Of a stretch of DNA of 47,478 nucleotides, positions 33,051 through 47,478 are shown piece by piece. Every line of letters begins with the position of its first letter. The stretch's first letter is position 1. The DNA lies in NCBI GenBank assembly GCA_017994695.1, contig JAGOKF010000022.1:1-47478 (forward strand), read 5' to 3'. The translations under genes and the position numbers were made by a program. The notes beneath the pieces are model-generated. The model saw only the letters and a list, made by a program, of their open reading frames with translations, did no database searches and was not told where the DNA came from. Source of the DNA: Myxococcota bacterium (GTDB taxonomy: Bacteria; Myxococcota_A; UBA9042; DTJE01).

Positions 33051-35801
33051 TCAGAGCGGGTTGCCGTCGGGATCCAGCGGCACCACGGGCCCTCGGTCCA
33101 GGGCTTCCAGGTCCTTCCGGATCCGCGACGCGTCACCCACCACCACGATGGAGATGCGTCCCAGGTCCAGGTAGCGGGACGCCACCTGCCGTAGGTCCTC
33201 CGACGAGACCCCCCGGATCATGGCCGGATAGCGGTCCAGAGTCTGGTCGGGAAGACCGTAGAGGATCAGGTCCAGGTAGCGGGAGGCGACCTTCTGGAGG
33301 GTCTCGAAGCGCCGGGGATAGCCGTTCACCAGGCTGTTGATCGCGTAGTCCAGTTCCTCGCCCTGCACCGGGCGCTTTCCCCGGACCTCGTCCAGTTCCC
33401 GCAGAATTTCCTGCAGGGCCGGCACGGTGACCTGGGTCTCGACGGGGGCCGTCGCCACCAGGGCCCCGGCGGACCGGGAGTACTGGAACTGGGCCCGGGC
33501 GCCGTAGGTGTAGCCCTTGTCCTCCCGGAGGTTCAGGTTCAGTCGGCTGACGAACTGGCCCCCCAGGGCGGCCTCCAGCACCTCCAGGGAGGGGAAGTCC
33601 GGGGTGTCGCGGGCAGGGCCCGGCAGGGCGGCGACCAGGACCGACTGGGCGGCGCCGGGGCGATCGACCAGGTAGATCCTCGGCGAGTCCGGGACCGGAG
33701 CCGGAGGGAGGACGGGCGCCGGATCGCCGGATGGACCCTTCCAGTTCCCGAACAGGTCCCTCAGCATCGGCTCCAGGGTCCGGCGATCGATGTCGCCGAC
33801 GACCAGAAGACGGGCTCCGACGGGCCGGGCCTGGGAACGCCACCAGCGGGCCACGTCCTCCGGGCGGATGGCCTTCAGGCCCGCCTCGGTTCCCATCGGC
33901 GACCTCCCGTAGGGATGGTCCCGGAAGAGGACCTTCCGGGCGACCTGGGCGGCGATCCAGGCCGGGACGTCCCGGGACTGGACCAGATCCACGAGGTGCA
34001 GATCCCGCTGCCGTTCCACCTCGTCCGCCGGGAAGTCGGGACGCAGCAGAAGATCCGCAAAGAGGCCCAGGGACTCGGACAGGCGCGGCCGGATCAGGGA
34101 CATGCGGGCCAGCACGGCGTCGTTGACCGCCTGGGCCTCGAACTGCGCTCCCAGTCGCTCGAGGGCCTCGGCGATCTCCCGGGAGGATTTCCCGGCAGCG
34201 CCTTCTTCCAGCAGGTCAGTCGTCAGGGATGCCAGTCCCGGAAGATCGGCGGGCTCGGCCGAGAGGCCGCCCGGGAGGATCATCCCCAGGAACACCAGGG
34301 GGACCTGGTGGCGCTCCACCAGGCTGACCTCCAGCCCGTTGGCCAGCGTGAACACCTGTCGCGCCGGGAGGTGGAAATCCGATTCCCGTCCCCGCCCGGG
34401 CATCGAGGCGCGTTCTTCCGGAGAGGCCGTCCCCTCTGAGACGGGGCCGAGGGACGCCGGGCGGGGATGCACCCGGAGCGTCACCCTGGGGGCCCGAAGG
34501 ACCCTCCGGGCGGCCTCCCGGACCTGTTCCCGGGTCAGCCCCAGGTACCGGTCCAGATCCCAGCGGAAGCGGTCCGGGTCCCCCAGGTGCTGGGCATAGA
34601 GGTTCATCCGGTCGGCGATGCCGCCGAAGCCCCCGATGTTCTCCATCGACCGGATGAAGTCCGCGGCGATGGACGTGACGGTGCGTTCCAGTTCCTCCCG
34701 GGTGATCCCGTCCCGGACGATCTCGTCGATGACCGCGGACGCGGCCGCCTCGACGTCCTCCAGGGAGCGGCCGGGCTTGGGCGTCAGCACCACCTGCAGG
34801 ACCCCCGACAGTTGGGAGGAACCGTGGAAGGCACTGGCATCCTGGGCGATCTGCATCCGGTGCACCAGTTGCTGGTAGAGGCGCGACGTCTTGCCCCCGC
34901 CGAGCACCTGGGCCAGGACGTCCATCGCCGCATCGTCCGGCGAAAAGAGGGGAACCGAGTGCCAGGTCCAGTAGGTTCGGGGCAACTGGACGCGATCCTC
35001 CATTTCCACCGACACGTCCCGGCCCAGGGAGGGAACCCAGTCCCGGACCTGGGCCCGGGGCGGACCCGGAGGAAAGGCCCCGAAATACTTGCGCACCAGT
35101 GCCAGGGCCTCCGCGGGGTCGAAGTCCCCGACGATTGCCAGGGTGGCGTTGTCGGGGCCGTACCAGGTCCGGAAGAAGTCCTTGACGTCCTCCAGGCTGG
35201 CGGCGTCGAGGTCCGCCATCGAGCCGATGGTGGGCCAGGAGTAGGGATGGTTCGGCGGATAGAGGACCTGGAGGATCCGCTCCCAGACCAGGCCGTAGGG
35301 CCGGTTCTCGTAGTTCTGGCGACGCTCGTTCTGGACCACGGACCGCTGGTTGTCCAGGCGCTCCTGGTTGATCGCGTCCAGCAGGAAACCCATCCGGTCC
35401 GACTCGAGCCACAGGGCCCGTTCCATCCAGGCCGACGGGACCACCTCCCAGTAGCGGGTGCGGTCCGTGCTCGTGGCCCCGTTCACGGCGCCCCCGATGT
35501 CCTGGAGGGGCTTGAAGAAGTCGTCGTTGAAGTGGGCGGACCCCTGGAACATCAGGTGCTCGAAGAGGTGGGCGAAGCCGGTCCTTCCCGGCCGCTCGTT
35601 CCTGGAACCCACCCGGTAGTTGATGTCGATGGCCACCAGGGGCGCCCGGGTGTCCTGGAGCAGGAACACCGTCAGGCCGTTCTCCAGGCGATGCACCTGG
35701 GGCTTCAGCAGCGTCAACGGGTTTTCCATCATCTTCCCTCTCGCCTCCTGTCCGGGAACACACAGCGCGACCAGGACCATCCAGCCGAGGAACTTTCTCA
35801 T
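33051..35801 (-). CDS. Exported M16-family zinc peptidase (two-domain)
   Basis: A 916-residue pitrilysin-family protease with signal peptide MRKFLGWMVLVALCVPGQEARG. The N-terminal half has the inverted zinc motif HLFEH (His78, Glu81, His82) and distal Glu159 in VVQNERRQ; the signature HLFEHLMFQG and GAVNGATSTDRT are typical. The second half (from about 465) repeats the M16 fold without the zinc motif (FLGMILPGGLSAEP, GYTYGARAQ), as in the fused PqqL/zinc protease type. It probably works in the periplasm. ATG at 35799-35801 after GAGGAGG. It follows the unknown 824-residue protein by 65 bases on the same strand. Confidence 0.94.
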   Translation of the reverse strand: MRKFLGWMVLVALCVPGQEARGKMMENPLTLLKPQVHRLENGLTVFLLQDTRAPLVAIDINYRVGSRNERPGRTGFAHLFEHLMFQGSAHFNDDFFKPLQDIGGAVNGATSTDRTRYWEVVPSAWMERALWLESDRMGFLLDAINQERLDNQRSVVQNERRQNYENRPYGLVWERILQVLYPPNHPYSWPTIGSMADLDAASLEDVKDFFRTWYGPDNATLAIVGDFDPAEALALVRKYFGAFPPGPPRAQVRDWVPSLGRDVSVEMEDRVQLPRTYWTWHSVPLFSPDDAAMDVLAQVLGGGKTSRLYQQLVHRMQIAQDASAFHGSSQLSGVLQVVLTPKPGRSLEDVEAAASAVIDEIVRDGITREELERTVTSIAADFIRSMENIGGFGGIADRMNLYAQHLGDPDRFRWDLDRYLGLTREQVREAARRVLRAPRVTLRVHPRPASLGPVSEGTASPEERASMPGRGRESDFHLPARQVFTLANGLEVSLVERHQVPLVFLGMILPGGLSAEPADLPGLASLTTDLLEEGAAGKSSREIAEALERLGAQFEAQAVNDAVLARMSLIRPRLSESLGLFADLLLRPDFPADEVERQRDLHLVDLVQSRDVPAWIAAQVARKVLFRDHPYGRSPMGTEAGLKAIRPEDVARWWRSQARPVGARLLVVGDIDRRTLEPMLRDLFGNWKGPSGDPAPVLPPAPVPDSPRIYLVDRPGAAQSVLVAALPGPARDTPDFPSLEVLEAALGGQFVSRLNLNLREDKGYTYGARAQFQYSRSAGALVATAPVETQVTVPALQEILRELDEVRGKRPVQGEELDYAINSLVNGYPRRFETLQKVASRYLDLILYGLPDQTLDRYPAMIRGVSSEDLRQVASRYLDLGRISIVVVGDASRIRKDLEALDRGPVVPLDPDGNPL

Positions 35802-35866
35802 TCCGGCGCCTCCTCGAGGGGAAAGGATAGCCGTTTTCCACGGGATGCCCACGGGTCCCCGGGGCG

Positions 35867-38341
35867 TCACGAGCGGATCGCCCACCAGGCCATCGTGCCC
35901 GCGACCAGGATCGCCAGGAGGATCCAGGGAATCCATCGCCGGAAGGCCCCCCGGCTCGGCAGGGCCTGGCGGAGGGTCTGGAGCGAGGGATTCTGGGGGT
36001 CGAGCGTCTCGATGCGGCGCAACAGGTCCTGCTGCTGTTCGGCGTTCCGGGCCGACTGGAGAGCCTTGAGCAGGTGCTGCCCCGTGGTCCGGCGGACGGC
36101 CGAGGCCGATTCGCTCCGGAGCACCCCGGCCAGCCACACGCCGGTCTCGGAGGCCTCGGGGAAGGACGGATCGTCGGCCTGGATCGTCGCCATGGTCTCC
36201 CGGTACCAGGCGGCGATCCGGCCCTCCACCTCCGGGTCTCCCCTGCCCCACTCCAGCAGCCGGTCCAGGTGGTCCCGGCGGTCGGCCCAGGACCTTCGGT
36301 CCAACACCTCGTCCAGGCGTTCCACGACCTCCCGTTTCAGGAGTTCCCGGATCGCCCGGCAGGCCGGGGAACGGGGTTGCGCGGCCAGGAGTCCCGCGAT
36401 GCGGAAGCCGTCCCGGCTGGACAGCGGGAGGAACCGGGAGCCGGTATCCAGGTACCACCGACCCAGGGAATCGAGGAAGTCGTCCGGAGGAAGGGTGTCC
36501 AGCACGGTCTGGACCATCTCGACCCAGGCGCCGGTTTCCCGGGGGTCCTGGAGCCAGGCGAAGGCCTCCTGTCGGAGCGCCTCGCCGCAGGCCTTTCCGG
36601 CGTCTCCCCGGAGCCGTGCCCAGATCCGGCGACCGTGGCGGATGGTCTCCTGGCGGCGGGGCCCCTGGCCCACCAGGCGACGGGAGGCCATCCAGAGGTC
36701 CAGGACCACCCGGTCGGGGACGTCGGGAAGCCGCTCGTAGAGGTCCAGCAGGGCCAGGGCCTCCCCGGTCTTCCCCGACAGGTCCAGCTGCCGAATCCGT
36801 TCCAGGGCGATGGATCGGGACCCCCGAAGGGCCGGAAAGATCCGCAAGAGGGATTCGAGGGATTCGCCCCGGGCCTCCCGGGACTGCAGGTATGCCAGGA
36901 AGGAACGGGCCACCTCCCGGGCCGGGACCGGGGATTCCAGCGCCTGAAGGAGGAGGCCGCGGAGTTCCCCGGGAACGTCCGGCAGAGTGTCCAGGTTGCA
37001 ACGGGCGGCCTCCGCCGGGTCCAACCGGACCTCCCGGGTCCAGGGCGCATCGCCAAGAGCGGCGTCCACGTCCGTTGCGTCCAGCAGGTCGGCCAGCATC
37101 AGGTCCAGGCGCGCTCGTCGTTCCTCCCAGAAGGCCTGGAGGACGGGGCCGCGGTTCCCGGCCCCCTGGAAGAGGGAGGCGACGTCCCGTTCCCGGTGCC
37201 GCGCGGCCTGTTCGACCCAGGCGGCAGGGGGCTCGGCCAGGCCCAGTTCGTTCGCGCGTCCACCCGCCTGTTCCCAGAGGAGGAAGACCGGTGCCTGGAA
37301 GGGGTCTCCGGGACGGCGGAACAGCGGGAGGTCCCGGGCCATCCGGTCCAGGGCATCCCGGGCGTCCTCGGGGTAGTCCCGGGCCAGGGCCAGGCGGGCC
37401 CTCCAGATGGCGACGTCCCAGAGGCAGAACCGTTTCGCCAGCAACTGGTCCAGGATCCGGGCCGCACTGGCCACCTCTCCGGTGTAGGCCTCGATCCGGG
37501 CCAGGGAGAGTTCGATGAAGCACTGCAGAAAGGGGTCGCGGTTCAGCGTGGCCGCCTGGACCTCCATGACCTCCCGGGTCAGGATGGCCCCTTCCTCTTT
37601 CAGGCCGGCCTGCTCCCGGGGCGAGGGACGTCTGGGTCGGGCCGGGACTCCCTCCCCGACGGTCTCCAGGAGGCGGTCGTTCAGGGCGATCATCCGGTGG
37701 AGGTCGTCCAGGTAGGTTCCCGAGGCCTTCTCCTGGGCCAGGGCGACCTGCATTCCGAGGGTCGCCCGGACCTCGGTCGCAAAGGCCAGGTGGTCCACGA
37801 CGCCGGACCGTTCCTCCAGCAGGTGCAGCCAGGAGACCTGTCGTGGGTCGGCCAGTCCCGCCTCCAGGGTCACCCGGAGCAGGCGGGCGGCGGTCCGGAC
37901 CGCCGGCAGGGGGGAACGGCGCACCAGGTCGGCCGCCTCCTCGAGGGCCACGTCCGACGGGCGTCCCAGAAGCCGGTTGCAGTGCAGGAGGTCCAGCAGT
38001 TCCCATGCCAGGGCCTGGAGATCCGCATCCAGGCAGGGGAACCATGCTTCCCAGCGCCTCGTCTCTTCCAGGGCGCCTTCCACGAATGGGATCGGCAGGG
38101 AGTCGGGGCGATCGGCGCCGTCGATGACCTCCTGAATGGCCAGGATGAGAACCCGGGCGGCCCGGAAGTGGTCTTCCAGGGGGAGGCCGGCGTCCACGGC
38201 CTCCCGGAGTTTCCGGACCCGCTCCGGGAAGTCCTGGGGACCCAGGCGGACGTCCAGGGAATCGACCTGCCGTTCCAGTTCCTGGATCCTGGGCTGCCCC
38301 GGATAGGACAGCCGGGAGGTGAAAGTCGGGTTCTCGGTCAT
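35867..38341 (-). CDS. Large helical protein with one C-terminal membrane anchor, function unknown
   Basis: An 824-residue mostly alpha-helical protein, no signal peptide, ending in one hydrophobic segment RRWIPWILLAILVAGTMAWW before a short Arg-Ser tail, so probably anchored in the inner membrane with the body in the cytoplasm. Repeated Leu/Ala/Glu/Arg helices of 30-40 residues suggest TPR-like or HEAT-like repeats, but I could not set repeat borders. No catalytic motif was seen. ATG at 38339-38341 has GGGGA just upstream; a GTG 12 codons earlier is an alternative. It sits between serC and an M16 peptidase on one strand with gaps of 58 and 65 bases, so co-transcription is likely. A scaffold role is inference. 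Confidence 0.75.
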   Translation of the reverse strand: MTENPTFTSRLSYPGQPRIQELERQVDSLDVRLGPQDFPERVRKLREAVDAGLPLEDHFRAARVLILAIQEVIDGADRPDSLPIPFVEGALEETRRWEAWFPCLDADLQALAWELLDLLHCNRLLGRPSDVALEEAADLVRRSPLPAVRTAARLLRVTLEAGLADPRQVSWLHLLEERSGVVDHLAFATEVRATLGMQVALAQEKASGTYLDDLHRMIALNDRLLETVGEGVPARPRRPSPREQAGLKEEGAILTREVMEVQAATLNRDPFLQCFIELSLARIEAYTGEVASAARILDQLLAKRFCLWDVAIWRARLALARDYPEDARDALDRMARDLPLFRRPGDPFQAPVFLLWEQAGGRANELGLAEPPAAWVEQAARHRERDVASLFQGAGNRGPVLQAFWEERRARLDLMLADLLDATDVDAALGDAPWTREVRLDPAEAARCNLDTLPDVPGELRGLLLQALESPVPAREVARSFLAYLQSREARGESLESLLRIFPALRGSRSIALERIRQLDLSGKTGEALALLDLYERLPDVPDRVVLDLWMASRRLVGQGPRRQETIRHGRRIWARLRGDAGKACGEALRQEAFAWLQDPRETGAWVEMVQTVLDTLPPDDFLDSLGRWYLDTGSRFLPLSSRDGFRIAGLLAAQPRSPACRAIRELLKREVVERLDEVLDRRSWADRRDHLDRLLEWGRGDPEVEGRIAAWYRETMATIQADDPSFPEASETGVWLAGVLRSESASAVRRTTGQHLLKALQSARNAEQQQDLLRRIETLDPQNPSLQTLRQALPSRGAFRRWIPWILLAILVAGTMAWWAIRS

Positions 38342-38399: not shown

Positions 38400-39497
38400 T
38401 CATCCGTGGCGGGAAACGAAGTCCTCCATGAACGACACGAGCGTCTGGACCTGGTCCACCGTCACCGCGTTGTACATCGACACCCGGATGCCCCCCAGGT
38501 CCCGGTAGCCCTTCAGCCCCACCATCCCGGCCTGCTTCGCCTCCTTCACGAAGAGGTCGTCGAGTTCGGGCGTGGGAAGACGGAAATCCACGTTCATCAG
38601 GGACCGGTCCTCGGGGACCGTGACGTAGCTCTGGTAGAAGTCGGGATGGCGGTCGATGCACCCGTAGAGGATCTCGCCCTTCCGCCGGTTGGCCGCCTCG
38701 ATGGCCTTCAACCCCCCGATCTCCCGATTGTAGGCCAGGACGTTCCTCAGGATGTAGATGGACCACGTGGGTGGCGTGTTGAACAGGCTGTTCGCGTCGG
38801 CATGGGTCTTGTAGTTCAGCATCTTCGGGAGATCCGGGCGGCACTGGGCCAGCAGGTCCTTTCGGATCAGCACCACCACGAGTCCCGAGGGGCCCAGGTT
38901 CTTCTGGGCTCCGGCGTAGATCAGCCCGAATGGCCGGACGTCGAAGGGGCGCCACAGGAAGTCCGAGGACATGTCGCAGACCAGGGGAATGCCTCCAGTG
39001 TCGGGGAATCTCTTCCACTGGGTGCCGTAGATGGTGTTGTTGCTGCAGAAGTGGACGTAGGTGCTGTCCTCGTGGACCCGGATCTCCTCGGGCCGGGGGA
39101 GCCGGCGGAATCCCTCGGACTCGGTGCTGGCGATGCAGCGCGCCGCATCCCCGGCCACGACCCGGGCTTCCTGGAAGGCCTTCTTGGCCCAGGAACCGGT
39201 GACGATGTAGTCGGCCTTCCGACCGCCCCACAGCAGGTTCATCGGGACCATCGCGAACTGGAGGTTCCCGCCGCCCTGGAGCAGCAGGACGTGGAAGTCC
39301 TCGGGAACTTCCAGCAGTTCCCGGACCAGGTCGATGGCTTCCTGGTGGACGGCCTCGTATTCCTTGCTCCGGTGGGAGATCTCCATCACCGACATCCCGG
39401 TGCCCGCGAAGTCCAGCAGTTCGTCCCGGGCCCGTTCCAGGGGCTTCAGAGGCAGGGCGGCGGGACCGGCGTAGAAGTTGATGACCCTCTTTCCCAT
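38400..39497 (-). CDS. serC: Phosphoserine aminotransferase
   Basis: A 365-residue class V aminotransferase making phosphoserine from 3-phosphohydroxypyruvate and glutamate. The start MGKRVINFYAGPAALP is typical. MSVMEISHRSKEY, LLLQGGGNLQFAMVPMNLL and the PLP-binding Lys199 in AGAQKNLGPSG follow the SerC pattern, and GYRDLGGIRVSMYNAV near the end binds substrate. ATG at 39495-39497 has GGGAGG upstream; a longer frame extends 29 codons upstream without such a site. It heads a likely operon with the two genes after it. Confidence 0.95.
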   Translation of the reverse strand: MGKRVINFYAGPAALPLKPLERARDELLDFAGTGMSVMEISHRSKEYEAVHQEAIDLVRELLEVPEDFHVLLLQGGGNLQFAMVPMNLLWGGRKADYIVTGSWAKKAFQEARVVAGDAARCIASTESEGFRRLPRPEEIRVHEDSTYVHFCSNNTIYGTQWKRFPDTGGIPLVCDMSSDFLWRPFDVRPFGLIYAGAQKNLGPSGLVVVLIRKDLLAQCRPDLPKMLNYKTHADANSLFNTPPTWSIYILRNVLAYNREIGGLKAIEAANRRKGEILYGCIDRHPDFYQSYVTVPEDRSLMNVDFRLPTPELDDLFVKEAKQAGMVGLKGYRDLGGIRVSMYNAVTVDQVQTLVSFMEDFVSRHG

Positions 39498-39531
39498 GGC
39501 ATCCTCCCAGTCTTCAAGGGGAAAACAGGCA

Positions 39532-39634
39532 CCGGGCACGATGCTAGCGGGTCCTTCGAGGAAGGCAACCGGAAACCCGGTCATTCCGCCCCGACGAAGC
39601 CGCTTTTGCCCGGGACCCCGCCGGGCACGATGCT
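39532..39634. repeat. 14-base direct repeat in the serC / Cys-rich gene divergent gap
   Basis: CCGGGCACGATGCT occurs at 39532-39545 and 39621-39634, 89 bases apart. The second copy leads directly into TATGAT (39637-39642), a good -10 box for the plus-strand gene. A shared regulatory element is possible. Confidence 0.5.
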
Positions 39635-40224: not shown

Positions 40225-41430
40225 ATGATCCTTCTGGGCTCGTTCCTGCACCGGGAGACCCTGGCCGAACTGGTCGGGAAGGCCCTGGAAGACCGCTTCG
40301 GCGAGCAGGACGCGGTGCTGTGGAAGCGGCTGGTCAGCCTGAATGCCTGGGCGGTCCGGGTCTGGTCGGATCGGTTCGCCTCGGACCTGTTCCTGGCCCT
40401 GTACGGGCAGGTGCCTCCGTCCTTCCCGGCGTCCACCAAGGCGGAACTGAAGGACCTGGTCGTGGCGAACCCGCCGGTCCGGTCCCCTCGCATCGACGAG
40501 TTGATCGAGGCGTACCGGCGCTTCCCCGAGGACTTCTACCGGGAGACACCCTACGACGGGCGGGTCTTCACGCTGGGGGACCCGCCACGGTACGTGGGAA
40601 GCCGCCGGATCAAGCGGGTCCGCCGCATCGCCGAAAAGACCTCCCGCCGGCTGATCGACTACCTCTTCGACCAGATCCGCCAGCGGGCCGACGAACTGGC
40701 CGAGGAGCGGGCCCGGCGGATGGGCGTCCAGAAGGAGCGTCTGGTCACGCCTCCGGACGAGATGGCCCGGGAGTTCGCCCACGCCGAGCGGCGGGTCCTG
40801 AAGTCCATCCGGGACCGGCTCTTCGTCGCTGCGATGCCCCTGTTCCACATCGACGACATCGTGGGGGTCCGGGTCCTGATGGAAGACGGGCTGCGGGATC
40901 CCTTCGCCCGGTGGCTGGAATCCCACCCGGACCTTTCCGTGGTGGACGAGAAGCACTTCACGGGGAATTTCCGCGGAAACAACATGGTGGTGGCCCTCCG
41001 GCTTCCGATGGATCGCATCCGGGAGTTCCCCGTGCCGTCGGAGGTCGCCGAGCGATGGGTGATCCGGGGGGTGGTTCCCCGGAAGGAGGACGCGGACGGC
41101 CTCTGGAAGGAGTTCCTGGACGGGAGCGAGGGACACGTCCGGCTGGAACTGCTCCAGGTGGACTACGAGGGGCTCCTGGAATCGGAGATCGGCCGGAGCA
41201 TGCACGAGGCCCACATCCTGGAGCAGCGGGAGAACGCGGCCTACAAGGGGCGTCTGGCCACGAACCTGGAGGCCCTGATGGACTGGCTGCTGGCCTATGC
41301 CCTGTCCCCGGTCCGGACCTTCGAGGGAATCCCCATCGTGTTGCGGGGCACCTACCTGCCGGACTACTTCGACCGGATTCACCGGCGGCTCTATCAGCCC
41401 GCGGCGGGAAACACCGGACTCACCCTTTGA
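40225..41430 (+). CDS. Uncharacterised protein with possible RelA/SpoT-like nucleotidyltransferase fold
   Basis: A 401-residue soluble protein, helical up to about residue 205. Then DDIVGVRVLMED resembles the strand in RelA/SpoT synthetase domains that reads D-L-x-G-x-R-V. FRGNNMVVAL lies where those have GYRSLH-type sequence. VRLELLQVDYEGLLESEI with SMHEAHILEQRE follows where they have E-V-Q-I-R-T and a His-containing helix. The (p)ppGpp synthetase catalytic residues are not clearly kept, so any activity may differ. This is my reading of spacing, not a match to a known profile. ATG at 40225 after AAAGGGGGA. Its 3' end overlaps the convergent giant gene by 11 bases. Confidence 0.7.
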   Translation: MILLGSFLHRETLAELVGKALEDRFGEQDAVLWKRLVSLNAWAVRVWSDRFASDLFLALYGQVPPSFPASTKAELKDLVVANPPVRSPRIDELIEAYRRFPEDFYRETPYDGRVFTLGDPPRYVGSRRIKRVRRIAEKTSRRLIDYLFDQIRQRADELAEERARRMGVQKERLVTPPDEMAREFAHAERRVLKSIRDRLFVAAMPLFHIDDIVGVRVLMEDGLRDPFARWLESHPDLSVVDEKHFTGNFRGNNMVVALRLPMDRIREFPVPSEVAERWVIRGVVPRKEDADGLWKEFLDGSEGHVRLELLQVDYEGLLESEIGRSMHEAHILEQRENAAYKGRLATNLEALMDWLLAYALSPVRTFEGIPIVLRGTYLPDYFDRIHRRLYQPAAGNTGLTL

Positions 41431-44400
41431 TTCGTGGAATGCGCCCGAAACGGGCCAGGGCCTCGATCCACGGGACGACGTGGCGGTCCTTCGGGGACCG
41501 ATAGACCGCCCGTTCCCGGTCCCGCGGGGTCGTGATCCGTTCGATTTCGGCCGTCAGGGGGGACCAGTGGTGGGCCCGCTGGACCGCCGAGGGGATCTCG
41601 CAGCGGGCCATCTCCTCCGTCCGGAGGTTCCGGACGCGGGTCGCGTGGCCCACCGCCTCGTCGAAGGGCACCTGGCTGTCGTGGAGCGCGCCGGGCAACT
41701 GGTGGGTGTGCATCCACCAGAGCCATTCCAGCACCTCGGGACAGTGGTCCAGGTCCGTGATCCCCCGGGTCACGCTGGTCGGGACCCAGGTGGCGAACTG
41801 GCCGTCCCGGTGCAGCGCCACGGCCCGCTCCAGCGTCAGGGAATGCGCTCCGGCAAGGACCTCGACGAAATGGCGGCTGTCCAGCACCACCTGGACCGCC
41901 CGGAGGAAGCCGTCGATCAGGCTCTGGGAGTAGAGGACCTGGTAGTGCTTCAGGAACCGCTCCCCCTGCTCCATTGCGAGTCGCATCTTCTGGGCGCCGC
42001 AGGTCCCGTGGACGCTACCGTTGGCGGCGGAGTAGATCAACTGGCGGCCGACCAGGCGCCCCAGGGCCTCCTGCTGGTCGGGCGTGCCGCCCCGGAGGAA
42101 GGACTCGGCCAGCAGGCCGTTGGCGCACCCCTGGGAGTACCCGATCCAAGCCCAGGGGCCCCGGACTCCGTGGAGGGCCCGGAGAATCGCCGAGGCGTTG
42201 TATTCCAGGCTGCGGAACAGGCCCGTATCGGCCCGGACCAGCCGGATGCCCCTCCGGGCCTCGATGCGCCTCCAGGCGTCCTCCAGTTCCCGTCCGTCCT
42301 TCCCATCGGTGATGACGCCCATCGCGCTGACGACCGTCAGGTCGTACCGTCCCGGCGGCGGGGCCACCAGCAGGCGCACCAGGGGGTCCCGGGACAGGAC
42401 CTCCCGGTCCTCGGGGAACCAGTACAGAGCCTCGATGACCGCGTCCACCAGGTCGGATTCCCTGGAGGGAACCGGCCTTCCGAGCGTCGTGGCCATCCAT
42501 TCCCGCACGTCGTCCACGTCCTCCCGGACGTTGTCCACCACGGACCAGACCCGCAGGGCCTCCTCGTGGCGCTGCCAGACCTTCTTCATCCAGGGGATCT
42601 GGAAGCCCGCCGGGACGGCCTGCAGGAAGGCCGAGCATGCCTCGCAGGCCTGGAGGTAGGACGTCCGGACGCCCCGCAGGGACGCCTGGGAATCCCGGCC
42701 ATCCAGGGACAGGGACGATGCGGCGTCGTCTGCCGCCTCGCAGGCCCGGCGGGCCTCCCGTTCCAGGGAGGCGGCGGTTCCCTTCGAGGGACGCGGGGCC
42801 GGAACGGGCGGGTGGTGGACCTCCCGGAGACGTGCCCTCCGGGCCTGCCAGGGCTGGGAACGGGTGAGGATTTCCGAGGCCAGGTCGGTCAGGGCTCCGA
42901 AATAGGACTCCCGGACCCGGCATCCGCCGGCCAGGAAATCCTCCCTGCGGGGCACGGGAATCCCCAGTTTCTCCTCGACCATCGAGGGAATGTCCAGGGG
43001 GGACAGGATGGCCGACTGGGGCTGGTGGAACAGGGCCATCAACACCCCGGCCAGGATGTGGGGCGCCTGCTGGGAGCACTCGAACAGCACCGCGACGAGA
43101 AAGTCGGAATCCCGGATCCGCAGGAGTTCCATCAGCAGCCGGTTGTTCCACTGGGTCGCCGCGGAACCGAAGGGGTCCGCCAGACCGATCTGGAGCAGGT
43201 CGGCCACGTCCATCGGCCCCAGCGCGCAGGGTGGAGGCCAGTCAGGCGAGGATTCGAGGATCGGAAGGGGCCCCAGGACCTCTCCCAGGAACGACGCGAT
43301 GGCCGCGGCGCGACCCGGGGACTCCAGGGGACCGGTCGCCGCATCGACCCGGGCCACGGATCGCTTCGCGGCACGGACCCATGCCAGTCGGCGGACGTCC
43401 TCCTCGGGCCATCGGTCCCGGATCCGGGGCAGGATCCAGTCCAGTTGCGCCAGGGTCAGGGAGGTCGCGACCTCCAGCAGCCGCTGCCGGTCCTCCGGCG
43501 AGGGGGAGGCCTCCCGGGCGATCCGGTACAGCGTTCCGGCATCGGGGATGCCCTCCAGGGCACTTGCCCACCGGTCATCCCGGTCGATGGGAGGCGCCTC
43601 GACGGCCACGGGCGGCGGCTGGGGCAGACCCGGGCGCGTGATCAGGTCCAGCCACCGGAGAATCCCGTCCACCTCGTAGTCGGCCTCGAGGTCGGGGAGC
43701 GCTTCCCGGACCCAGTCCTTGGCCGCCCGAAGGTCCAGGCCGCGGCCCTCGGTAACGTCCCGGACCAGGGGCTCCAGGGAGGCCCCCCACCGGGGCGTGC
43801 CGGTCAGCAGGCGGGAAATCATCCGGCAGAGCACAGGCCGGGGGATCAGGTCCCCCGGGGACCGGATGCCTTCCTCGTCCAGGTGGGACTTCCAGGAAGC
43901 GATCCGGTCGCGAAGACCGGCAATCCGGGTCCCGAGCCCGGGATCGAAATGGGCCAGGACCACCCCCGCGGTGTTCAGGATTTCGCCGATCCGGAAGGGA
44001 TCGTCCGGAAGCCTGCCGGAACGGAGGATGTCCTGCCAGTGGGAGAAGGGGCCGACCCCTTCGGGAAGGCGGAGGTCCAGTCGGCCGCCGGGACCGAACC
44101 GGATGACCAGCGACCCCTGTTCCAGGCCGGGAAGGGTGAAGCGGGACGGAGGATGTCGGGAAGAGGTCATCGTGAAGGGATCGGGGGGAAGTTCCCACCG
44201 GAGGTCCATCGCCAGGTCCTCGATGCCCCTGGACAGGACGATTCCCTTCCGCCAGCCCAGTTCGACCCGGGCGCCGGGTTCCATCGTGACCTGCCGCCCC
44301 GAAAGTTCCGCCCGGGCTTCCTCCAACGACAGCACAATCCCTCCCGCAGGCTCGTACTGCACCGTTCCTCCCGCGCCGCCCGGAGGGGCGATGCGGACCC

Positions 44401-46066
44401 GGGCGTCCAGGTCCAGGCGCGAAAGGACGTGCATCCGAAGCAGGGGATCGGAGATGGCCAGTTCGGGGATCGAGGGGACCTGGGCCTGGATGGCCTGCCG
44501 CAACCGACCCTCCAGCCGGATCCGGCCCTGGATGCCGTGGCGGGGACGTCCGGTCTTCCACGACGCCTCCAGGACGCCCTCGTCCAGTTCCAGGAACCAC
44601 CCCAGGTCCTCGCCGCCCCGGAGGTCCCGCAGGGGCATGGAGACCTTTCCGGCCAGGGACAAGCCGCCGCCCGGGAACAGGAGTTCGCTTCCCTCGGGGC
44701 CGTGGGAAACATGGACTCCCCCCTGGATCCGGAGGCTTTCCAGGCGGACCTTCAGGGTGGTCTGGCCCTTCAGCGACGGGTGCCAGGAACGACCCTCCAG
44801 GTCCAGGAACGGGATTCGGCATCCCGGACGGGCGGCCACCAGCACCTCGGCCCGGGTGATCCGGGGCCGGGAGGAATCGTCGGGGCCGTCGAAGTCCACC
44901 GAGACGCTTCCCTCCGACCGCAGACGGATGGCGCTTTCGGGAAAGGCCAGGACCAGCGTGGGGGCCCGGAACGACAGCGTGTCCCGGGAGCGGCGGATGC
45001 TTCCCTGGACCTGCAGTCGGAAGGACTCGGGCGTGGTCGCCTGCCCGAGGAGCCGGGTCCCGTCCACCATCGTCGTGCCCACGGAACACCGGGGAAGGAT
45101 TCCCTCTCCCTCGAGGGTTCCCTCCCCGTGATCCAGGAGGCCCCAGAGGAACCGGAGGATTCCGAGCGTCTGGAGGCGCTCCGCGTGGAGGTGCCCCGTG
45201 GCCAGGGGGGATCCTCCCAGGATGGCCGGAAGGGACGCGTGGGGCACCGGGAGGATGGCCGCGGGCAGGGTGACGTTCCGGAAGGGCCAGGTCGCTCGAT
45301 CCATCAGGCGCACCTGCCCCGAGAAGGACAGTTCCATCTCCCAACGGCGCGCCTGGGCGTTCCAGCGCGGAAGCCCCCGGACCGACGACAGGTGGACCTC
45401 TCCGGGCTCCAGTTGCCCCTCGATCAGGGATTCCTTGAGGTGCTGGAGGGTGTCCCGGGTCTCCTTCCACAGGCGGCCCATGAGGGATTCCCTCCCGGGA
45501 ACGATCCACTGGGCCAGGGGGGACCGTTCCAGTTCACGCACCCACTCTTCGCCGCGTCGCCGAACCTCCCGGGACAACGGATCCTGGAGGAGTGCCCGGA
45601 GGGATTCCAGGGACCGGTCGTCGAAGAGGTGACGAAGATCCCAGAGGGCCTGGAGGACGTTGGGAAGAACCACCGCGGGCAGGAACGTCACCTCCATTTC
45701 CTGGACGATGGGCCCTGCATCGAGGGATCCTTCCGGGGCTGGTCCCACCCGGGCTCGGATCACCGCCTGGCACGGCCCCGTGACCTGGCACTGGAGCCCC
45801 GGGGTGCGGGCCAGGGGAAGCAGGTGGGTGCCGGGGACCAGCAGGGCGGTCAGTTGGCAGTTCCCCTTCTGGAGCAGGGTCGTTTCCAGGTCGCCCAGGC
45901 GGACGTGGGCATCGTCCGGGGCCATGAATCCCCCGAGGGCCTCGGGGACCTTCCGGAAGTGTCCTTTCCGACGCAACTCGAGGTGGACCCGCGGCGGATC
46001 ACCGGTCCGGACCCGATCCCAGGACGTTCGGAAGCGGAATCCTTCGGGGGATTCTCGTTCGGCCAT
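41420..46066 (-). CDS. Giant 1548-residue protein with alpha/beta-hydrolase-like C-terminus
   Basis: One of the largest genes here. No signal peptide or membrane helix. Residues 1 to about 750 are beta-rich with alternating hydrophobic strands (GTHLLPLARTPGL, SFSGQVRLMDRATW, GSVSVDFDGPDD). Residues about 770-1230 are helical. From about 1250 comes a putative alpha/beta hydrolase: YDLTVVSAMGVITD, then nucleophile elbow WIGYSQGCANGLLAESF (Ser1311), then late His candidates in AHHWSPLT and SPKDRHVVPW (about 1529). The acid residue could not be assigned. No known family was recognised over the whole length. The ATG (46064-46066) follows GGAGATCGG. It is convergent with the RelA-like gene and divergent from a metallopeptidase lipoprotein. 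Confidence 0.82.
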   Translation of the reverse strand: MAERESPEGFRFRTSWDRVRTGDPPRVHLELRRKGHFRKVPEALGGFMAPDDAHVRLGDLETTLLQKGNCQLTALLVPGTHLLPLARTPGLQCQVTGPCQAVIRARVGPAPEGSLDAGPIVQEMEVTFLPAVVLPNVLQALWDLRHLFDDRSLESLRALLQDPLSREVRRRGEEWVRELERSPLAQWIVPGRESLMGRLWKETRDTLQHLKESLIEGQLEPGEVHLSSVRGLPRWNAQARRWEMELSFSGQVRLMDRATWPFRNVTLPAAILPVPHASLPAILGGSPLATGHLHAERLQTLGILRFLWGLLDHGEGTLEGEGILPRCSVGTTMVDGTRLLGQATTPESFRLQVQGSIRRSRDTLSFRAPTLVLAFPESAIRLRSEGSVSVDFDGPDDSSRPRITRAEVLVAARPGCRIPFLDLEGRSWHPSLKGQTTLKVRLESLRIQGGVHVSHGPEGSELLFPGGGLSLAGKVSMPLRDLRGGEDLGWFLELDEGVLEASWKTGRPRHGIQGRIRLEGRLRQAIQAQVPSIPELAISDPLLRMHVLSRLDLDARVRIAPPGGAGGTVQYEPAGGIVLSLEEARAELSGRQVTMEPGARVELGWRKGIVLSRGIEDLAMDLRWELPPDPFTMTSSRHPPSRFTLPGLEQGSLVIRFGPGGRLDLRLPEGVGPFSHWQDILRSGRLPDDPFRIGEILNTAGVVLAHFDPGLGTRIAGLRDRIASWKSHLDEEGIRSPGDLIPRPVLCRMISRLLTGTPRWGASLEPLVRDVTEGRGLDLRAAKDWVREALPDLEADYEVDGILRWLDLITRPGLPQPPPVAVEAPPIDRDDRWASALEGIPDAGTLYRIAREASPSPEDRQRLLEVATSLTLAQLDWILPRIRDRWPEEDVRRLAWVRAAKRSVARVDAATGPLESPGRAAAIASFLGEVLGPLPILESSPDWPPPCALGPMDVADLLQIGLADPFGSAATQWNNRLLMELLRIRDSDFLVAVLFECSQQAPHILAGVLMALFHQPQSAILSPLDIPSMVEEKLGIPVPRREDFLAGGCRVRESYFGALTDLASEILTRSQPWQARRARLREVHHPPVPAPRPSKGTAASLEREARRACEAADDAASSLSLDGRDSQASLRGVRTSYLQACEACSAFLQAVPAGFQIPWMKKVWQRHEEALRVWSVVDNVREDVDDVREWMATTLGRPVPSRESDLVDAVIEALYWFPEDREVLSRDPLVRLLVAPPPGRYDLTVVSAMGVITDGKDGRELEDAWRRIEARRGIRLVRADTGLFRSLEYNASAILRALHGVRGPWAWIGYSQGCANGLLAESFLRGGTPDQQEALGRLVGRQLIYSAANGSVHGTCGAQKMRLAMEQGERFLKHYQVLYSQSLIDGFLRAVQVVLDSRHFVEVLAGAHSLTLERAVALHRDGQFATWVPTSVTRGITDLDHCPEVLEWLWWMHTHQLPGALHDSQVPFDEAVGHATRVRNLRTEEMARCEIPSAVQRAHHWSPLTAEIERITTPRDRERAVYRSPKDRHVVPWIEALARFGRIPRIKG

Positions 46067-46224
46067 CGTCCGATCTCCGCTGCCGGTGGCACGGAAAGTG
46101 TAGCATCGCCCCGGAGGTTGCAGCAGAGGCCGCGTGGTCGTGTTTCCGCGCGGTCGCGGATGCCGGAATCCTTGACGCGGGCCGGGGAAACCGGAACCAT
46201 TCCAGCCCGGGACGGGGGCTTTGG

Positions 46225-47478
46225 ATGGATCGGGCCCGGAACGAATCGTGGTGCCTGCTGGTGATCCCGCTGGTCCTCGGGTCCTGCACGACCGGCGGTT
46301 CGCGCCGGGTCCCCCCTCCCCTCTCTTGCACGCCGTACTGCGAGGACCGGACCTGTGGCGAGGACGGATGCGGAGGCACCTGCGGCACCTGCGAAGAGGG
46401 GACCTTCTGCGAACCCTTCCTGGGACGCTGTTTCGAGGGATCCGGTGGCGTCCTGACCGGTTCCCTGGGACTGATGCAGCGTCCCGGGCACCTGCTCCCG
46501 GGCGGGGGCGTCGAACTGGAGGATGCCCGGTGGATCGGAGCCCTGGGCGCGATTCTGGTGGTCGCATCGGCCGACGGCGAGGTCCTCGGGGCGGGGGAGG
46601 TGAACTCCCGGGACGGGGACTTCCGGGTGACGACCTCCCGGGCCCTGCGTCCGGGGGATCGGCTGGTGGTCACCACCTGGTGGGCCCCGAAGGGAACCGT
46701 GGTGCTGGCGGTGCTGCGCCCGCCCGAGGGGGAATTCCACGAATCCACGCCCCTTTCGCCCTGGTCCTGGGTCGTGGAGACCGGGGGTCGGGCGGACCTG
46801 GGGACCCTGACCGTCACCGAGGCGGAAGGTTCCGGGGCGCTCTACCTCTTCGTCCTGGCCCGCCAGGTCCAGCAATCGGTCCTCGACTCGGTGCTCTCGG
46901 GCGACGCACTTCCCCTGGTTCGCCTGGGGGTCGTCTGGGGGCCCGGGACCGTGTTCGGCTGCGGGGCATGCTTCGCATCCACCCTGGGTTTCCAGATCGA
47001 GGGCGGCCCGCGGATGCTGCAGAGCGTCCTCATCGACGACGACCCGACCATGGGGGGGCCGTGGTCCTGGCCGGTCCTGCTCCACGAGATGGGGCACTAC
47101 GTGGCGGAGAACTACAGCCGGGACGATTCCCCGGGAGGCAGCCACTTCCTGGGCCAGAAACTGCCCCCCGCCTTCGCCTGGTCCGAGGGATGGGCCTCCT
47201 TCTTCGGAGCGATGATCGCCTCGGAGTGGTCCGGGGAGCCGCAGCCGTATTACTGGGACATCCAGCCCGGCGGATCGTTCTGGATCGACTATGACGCGGG
47301 CCGGGTGGACGATCGCTCGGACGTCCGCCCCCCGGTCCCCGCCCAGGGCCAGAACCAGGTCCTGGACGAGACCTGGGTGACCCATTTCCTGTGGCACCTG
47401 CGGGAGGGGGACGGAGGCGCGGCGACCCGGGGAGGCCTCTACGACGACCCCGGGATCCTCTGGACGTTCGGGTCGAAG
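46225..47478 (+). CDS. Metallopeptidase lipoprotein, cut by right window edge
   Basis: Residues 1-418 are visible. Signal peptide with lipobox VLGSC (Cys21), a short Cys-rich segment (CEDRTCGEDGCGGTCGTC, about 38-55) typical of myxobacterial surface lipoproteins, then a beta-rich domain and a zincin site HEMGH (His287, Glu288, His291) with likely third ligand Glu321 in SEGWASFFG. This Glu-zincin pattern matches the truncated lipoprotein at 7475-8761 in layout but not in overall sequence. ATG at 46225; GGGACGGGGG stands 6 bases upstream. Weak TTGACG (46172-46177) and AACCAT (46195-46200) could be its promoter. Substrate unknown, presumably an external protein. Confidence 0.88.
   Translation, partial: MDRARNESWCLLVIPLVLGSCTTGGSRRVPPPLSCTPYCEDRTCGEDGCGGTCGTCEEGTFCEPFLGRCFEGSGGVLTGSLGLMQRPGHLLPGGGVELEDARWIGALGAILVVASADGEVLGAGEVNSRDGDFRVTTSRALRPGDRLVVTTWWAPKGTVVLAVLRPPEGEFHESTPLSPWSWVVETGGRADLGTLTVTEAEGSGALYLFVLARQVQQSVLDSVLSGDALPLVRLGVVWGPGTVFGCGACFASTLGFQIEGGPRMLQSVLIDDDPTMGGPWSWPVLLHEMGHYVAENYSRDDSPGGSHFLGQKLPPAFAWSEGWASFFGAMIASEWSGEPQPYYWDIQPGGSFWIDYDAGRVDDRSDVRPPVPAQGQNQVLDETWVTHFLWHLREGDGGAATRGGLYDDPGILWTFGSK

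Follow-up and report, generated by a model that had tools for sequence, protein, structure and literature searches.

A large protein family of the Myxococcota with a predicted C-terminal alpha/beta-hydrolase-type catalytic region

The window, which is the whole 47,478-nucleotide stretch of DNA analysed here, carries on its minus strand a single intact frame of 1548 codons that runs from 46066 to 41420. This frame and the features within and around it are listed in Table 1. The earlier note had described the frame as intact and well started; this was borne out, and the strand, which it had left unstated, is the minus strand. The frame stays open upstream of 46066, where the first ATG is found at 46567. 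Despite this longer open frame, 46066 is the likely start because a GGAG ribosome-binding-like site and its surrounding bases are kept before this codon in the sister genome L016, which is assigned to the phylum Myxococcota.

Table 1. Coordinates of the 1548-residue protein gene, its regions and selected residues, and the adjacent features of the window.
Feature	Position	Strand	Remarks
1548-aa protein gene	41420-46066	-	ATG at 46066, stop 41420-41422; frame intact
GGAG ribosome-binding-like site	46075-46078	-	9-12 bases upstream of ATG 46066; conserved in L016
Residues 1-220, N-terminal region	45407-46066	-	Least conserved part
Residues 221-690, strongly beta-alternating	43997-45406	-	Beta moment z 4.3
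Residues 701-1205, middle with helical periodicity	42452-43966	-	Alpha moment z 2.7
Residues 1206-1548, predicted alpha/beta-hydrolase-type catalytic region	41423-42451	-	Best conserved part
Ser1311 codon in GYSQG, predicted nucleophile	42134-42136	-	27/27 homologues
His1353 codon in ANGSxH, invariant	42008-42010	-	27/27 homologues
Asp1463 codon in HDSQV, predicted catalytic acid	41678-41680	-	27/27 homologues
His1499-His1500 codons in HHW, predicted to hold catalytic base	41567-41572	-	26/26 complete copies
Antisense open frame	41297-46264	+	1655 codons, covers the whole 1548-aa protein gene
Convergent neighbour gene, 401 aa	40225-41430	+	Overlaps the stop of the 1548-aa protein gene by 11 bases
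serC (phosphoserine transaminase)	38400-39584	-	
1664-aa frame, tandem M16 peptidase halves	33051-38045	-	YfmH-like then YfmF-like
Divergent gene, cut by contig end	46225-47478	+	Lipoprotein-like start VLGSC, HEMGH metallopeptidase-like motif

The long open frame antisense to the gene was considered as a coding sequence and rejected. In the sister genome two stops interrupt it while the minus-strand protein is conserved, and homologues across the phylum track the minus-strand frame at the protein level; the antisense frame is therefore attributed to the 70% GC content. Between the window and L016, identity at the three codon positions is 88, 92 and 63%. The encoded proteins share 83% of their amino acids, with a dN of 0.104, a dS of 0.639 and a dN/dS of about 0.16. 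The gene is real and under purifying selection. In the same comparison, dN is lowest in the C-terminal region (0.023, versus 0.12-0.14 elsewhere).

The search for homologues proposed in the earlier note recovered a family of such proteins. They occur in 11 of the 13 genomes of the window's own taxonomic family (f1), including all eight of good quality. At wider ranks, 16 of the class's 52 genomes and 30 of 284 genomes sampled across the phylum carry one. When public genomes were searched by one pattern scan that used the window protein as its sole query, L016 alone was retrieved. Where copies are not cut by contig ends, most frames encode approximately 1500-1670 residues; a few are longer, solely because the frame is open upstream of the likely start. 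No relative was found in the viral contigs or plasmids searched. As far as could be searched, the family may be private to the Myxococcota.

The tree built from the C-terminal region is closely congruent with the taxonomy. It requires nine label changes, the minimum possible, with one f12 sequence placed within the f1 group. This agreement suggests that the family was inherited vertically from early on, with many losses, rather than spread recently. It would thus be an old family; it spans many Myxococcota families, retains a length of approximately 1550 residues and is absent from the catalogues searched. The misplaced sequence (L041, from genome G037) is the only hydrolase homologue found in f12 and branches inside f1 with joint-group support of 100/97; it was possibly acquired by horizontal transfer.

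The earlier note assigned the protein to no recognised family, and searches of Pfam, NCBIfam, PADLOC and PDB sequences bear this out. The window protein has no match in the first three, and the PADLOC anti-phage defence models returned no families for it or for its downstream neighbour frames. Nothing convincing was found among PDB sequences with either the whole protein or profiles of its three regions. Likewise, literature searched for the motif together with the phylum, and for GYSQG cutinase and LysB proteins, contained no description of the 1548-residue protein. The family is uncatalogued, in that every catalogue of protein families consulted here lacks it.

When the C-terminal regions of 27 homologues were scanned singly, only sub-threshold matches were obtained. 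Those to hydrolases with a GxSxG motif comprised FSH1 (PF03959) in four members, PE-PPE (PF08237) in one and the PHROG 102 endolysin in four. The FSH1 matches had E-values of up to 1, the best being 0.034; none of the 27 members reached the Pfam gathering cut-off and the window protein gave no match. The single PE-PPE match (E 0.074) is also below its gathering cut-off, and cutinase (PF01083) matched none of the 27. Other weak matches, such as those to PHROG 9390 in eight members and to Peripla_BP_6 and Arginase in one apiece, are ill-fitting and mark the noise level of the scan.

Conservation is far higher in the C-terminal 340 or so residues than in any other part of the protein. The GYSQG motif lies where the earlier note placed it, at residues 1309-1313 with Ser1311 at its centre, and is present in all 27 homologues. 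Simple propensities indicate a strand-like stretch before the motif and a helix-like stretch after it. Ser1311, Asp1463 and the His1499/His1500 pair are invariant among the 26-27 homologues and follow one another in the sequence order of an alpha/beta-hydrolase triad. The earlier note had drawn attention to late histidines in general. Those of HHW (1499-1500) are invariant, and this motif likely holds the catalytic histidine. The late histidine of DRHV varies, several homologues having another residue there, and is not catalytic.

Profile comparisons point in the same direction. The C-terminal profile scores 35.9 against FSH1, 30.3 against Abhydrolase_6, 28.1 against Abhydrolase_2 and 26.0 against cutinase. 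All four values exceed every column-shuffled null (maxima of 19.1-23.0 in 58-60 trials per profile), and unrelated profiles score 16.6-18.3 against the same region. In the comparisons for which alignments were printed, the confident local alignment places GYSQG on the GxSxG nucleophile elbow, and the match is short, covering about 13-55 columns around it. In the same set-up, cutinase itself scores only 38-41 against other alpha/beta-hydrolase profiles. A protein remotely related within the fold would accordingly be expected to match weakly, and the C-terminal scores are near the level at which this fold is detectable in the set-up used. Together with the invariant Ser-Asp-His order, the match in register at the elbow argues for the hydrolase-like C-terminal domain that the earlier note had proposed.

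Structure prediction was also attempted. AlphaFold2 gave no usable model, with a pLDDT of 37 for residues 1148-1548 and of 30 for residues 240-690, in both cases from an alignment of the window protein and its L016 counterpart. These low values arise because the alignment held only two near-identical sequences, and the fold is therefore one that we infer.

FSH1 is the best profile match of those tried. Its nucleophile elbow reads GFSQGC, compared with GYSQGC in the 1548-residue protein, and FSH1 serine hydrolases are soluble, as the latter is predicted to be. However, FSH1 proteins have about 200-250 residues and lack the 1200-residue N-terminal part. Most cutinase, PE-PPE and mycobacteriophage LysB enzymes are short proteins whose substrates, cutin, mycolate or wall esters, are extracellular. 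This group (PF01083, PF08237) has in common with the 1548-residue protein the GYSQG pentapeptide and the order Ser, Asp, His. LysB-D29, which carries a long insertion, and several cutinases have been reported to contain GYSQG together with a triad of Ser, Asp and His (PMC7022511). In contrast to these enzymes, the protein described here is longer, has no secretion signal and has no relatives in viral contigs; in addition, cutinase gives the lowest score of the four hydrolase profiles.

The remainder of the protein differs in character from its C-terminal region. Periodicity was expressed as z, the hydrophobic moment at the beta or helix angle in standard deviations above shuffled sequence. The beta-rich N-terminal half and helical middle described in the earlier note were recovered, with a z of 4.3 at the beta angle for residues 221-690 and of 2.7 at the helix angle for residues 700-1205. 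Internal repeats in the N-terminal half are confined to one weak pair (300-430 versus 500-620, score 23.3). No transmembrane-like or signal segment is present in 24 homologues, the maximum 19-residue hydropathy being 1.2-1.7 in all. This agrees with the earlier note, which saw no secretion signal and thought an intracellular role possible, and indicates that the protein is most probably soluble and cytoplasmic.

The N-terminal half was compared with AsmA/TamB-like proteins (PF05170). The alternation is equally strong in the AsmA-like proteins of the same genomes (z 4.6), whereas five globular control sets gave -1.4 to 0.6. None of these control sets consists of beta-rich proteins, so the resemblance does not single out AsmA. 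In hhalign, the N-terminal half scores 25.8 against the AsmA profile and 22.8 against the reversed profile, and none of 24 members matches AsmA. Since the profile is not separated from its reversal and the N-terminal membrane anchor of AsmA/TamB-like proteins is absent from the protein and its homologues, the N-terminal half is not assigned to AsmA, and kinship with AsmA/TamB is unsupported.

On the basis of these observations, we consider it probable (approximately 0.72) that the protein is a serine hydrolase that is stand-alone, soluble and cytoplasmic, belongs to a family private to the Myxococcota as far as searched, and has a C-terminal alpha/beta-hydrolase-type domain and a probably acyl-bearing substrate. 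The activity is most likely that of a serine esterase, lipase or thioesterase. In the proposed mechanism, the C-terminal 340 or so residues would form the alpha/beta-hydrolase-type domain, in which Ser1311 of the GYSQG elbow would attack an ester or thioester carbonyl with the help of Asp1463 and His1500 (or His1499). A large lid or cap may be made up of the approximately 150 residues between the serine and the aspartate. Substrate binding or positioning would fall to the 1200 or so residues that precede the domain, beta-alternating and then helical. The enzyme may act on lipids, polymers or acyl chains, as raised in the earlier note. Against the hydrolase reading, no library match is significant alone, and the invariant His1353 lies off the canonical triad order and could signify a different arrangement. 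The predicted active site is directly testable at Ser1311.

The main rival to the hydrolase reading is acyltransferase activity on the same fold, as in mycolyltransferases, which have the alpha/beta-hydrolase fold and pass an acyl-serine intermediate to an acceptor. The acyl group on Ser1311 would then be passed to an alcohol or amine, and the N-terminal regions would bind the donor or acceptor. Identical residues would be conserved in such an enzyme, and an enzyme that is cytoplasmic and has so large a substrate-binding portion could serve synthesis no less than degradation. We nevertheless regard this activity as unlikely, as no positive evidence sets it apart from hydrolysis and, outside the window's own family, the gene has no conserved biosynthetic neighbourhood.

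There is likewise a small chance that the GYSQG domain has some other fold, for example that of a binding domain, and that the likeness reflects convergence limited to a short glycine-serine motif. That no curated hydrolase model is matched significantly, that profile similarity is restricted to the motif region and that the two-sequence structure prediction was uninformative would all be expected in this case. It is harder to reconcile with four alpha/beta-hydrolase profiles scoring above every shuffle, with the register expected wherever alignments were printed, and with an invariant aspartate and histidine that come after the serine in the expected order.

A more speculative architecture may also be envisaged. 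A single polypeptide would combine an elongated amphipathic beta lipid groove with its own serine lipase or acyltransferase, and would shuttle and process acyl lipids; this would be a new architecture for the Myxococcota, and we hold it to be doubtful. The groove would be loosely comparable to AsmA/TamB-type sheets in the way it works, not in descent. Should the beta-alternating region prove to carry lipids, lipid handling and lipolysis would be fused, unusually, in one cytoplasmic protein; otherwise, the protein would still represent an uncatalogued family of large hydrolases.

The convergent neighbour belongs to a separate uncatalogued family, found in seven of the 52 genomes of the class with 41-100% identity. 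By eye, its stretch FHIDDIVGVRV resembles RelA/SpoT-like synthetases. The earlier note suggested that the two genes form an undescribed system, and they are adjacent and convergent in two genera, g1 and g2 (five genomes); as a general feature this is refuted and very improbable, since the neighbour is in far fewer genomes of the class (7/52, versus 16 for the hydrolase homologues), lies on a different contig from the hydrolase gene in G006, occurs without it in G022 and is not between it and the directly following serC in G004 and G010, and convergent genes share no promoter.

Outside the window's own family, no convincing recurring neighbour and no conserved operon were found. serC is downstream of the hydrolase gene in seven loci, all within f1. 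Homologues of the divergent gene adjoin the hydrolase gene in L017, L019, L020 and L021, and those of L017 and L019 have no Pfam match. In the 1664-residue frame beyond serC, the M16 matches begin only near residue 790, which leaves the first 780 or so residues unassigned.
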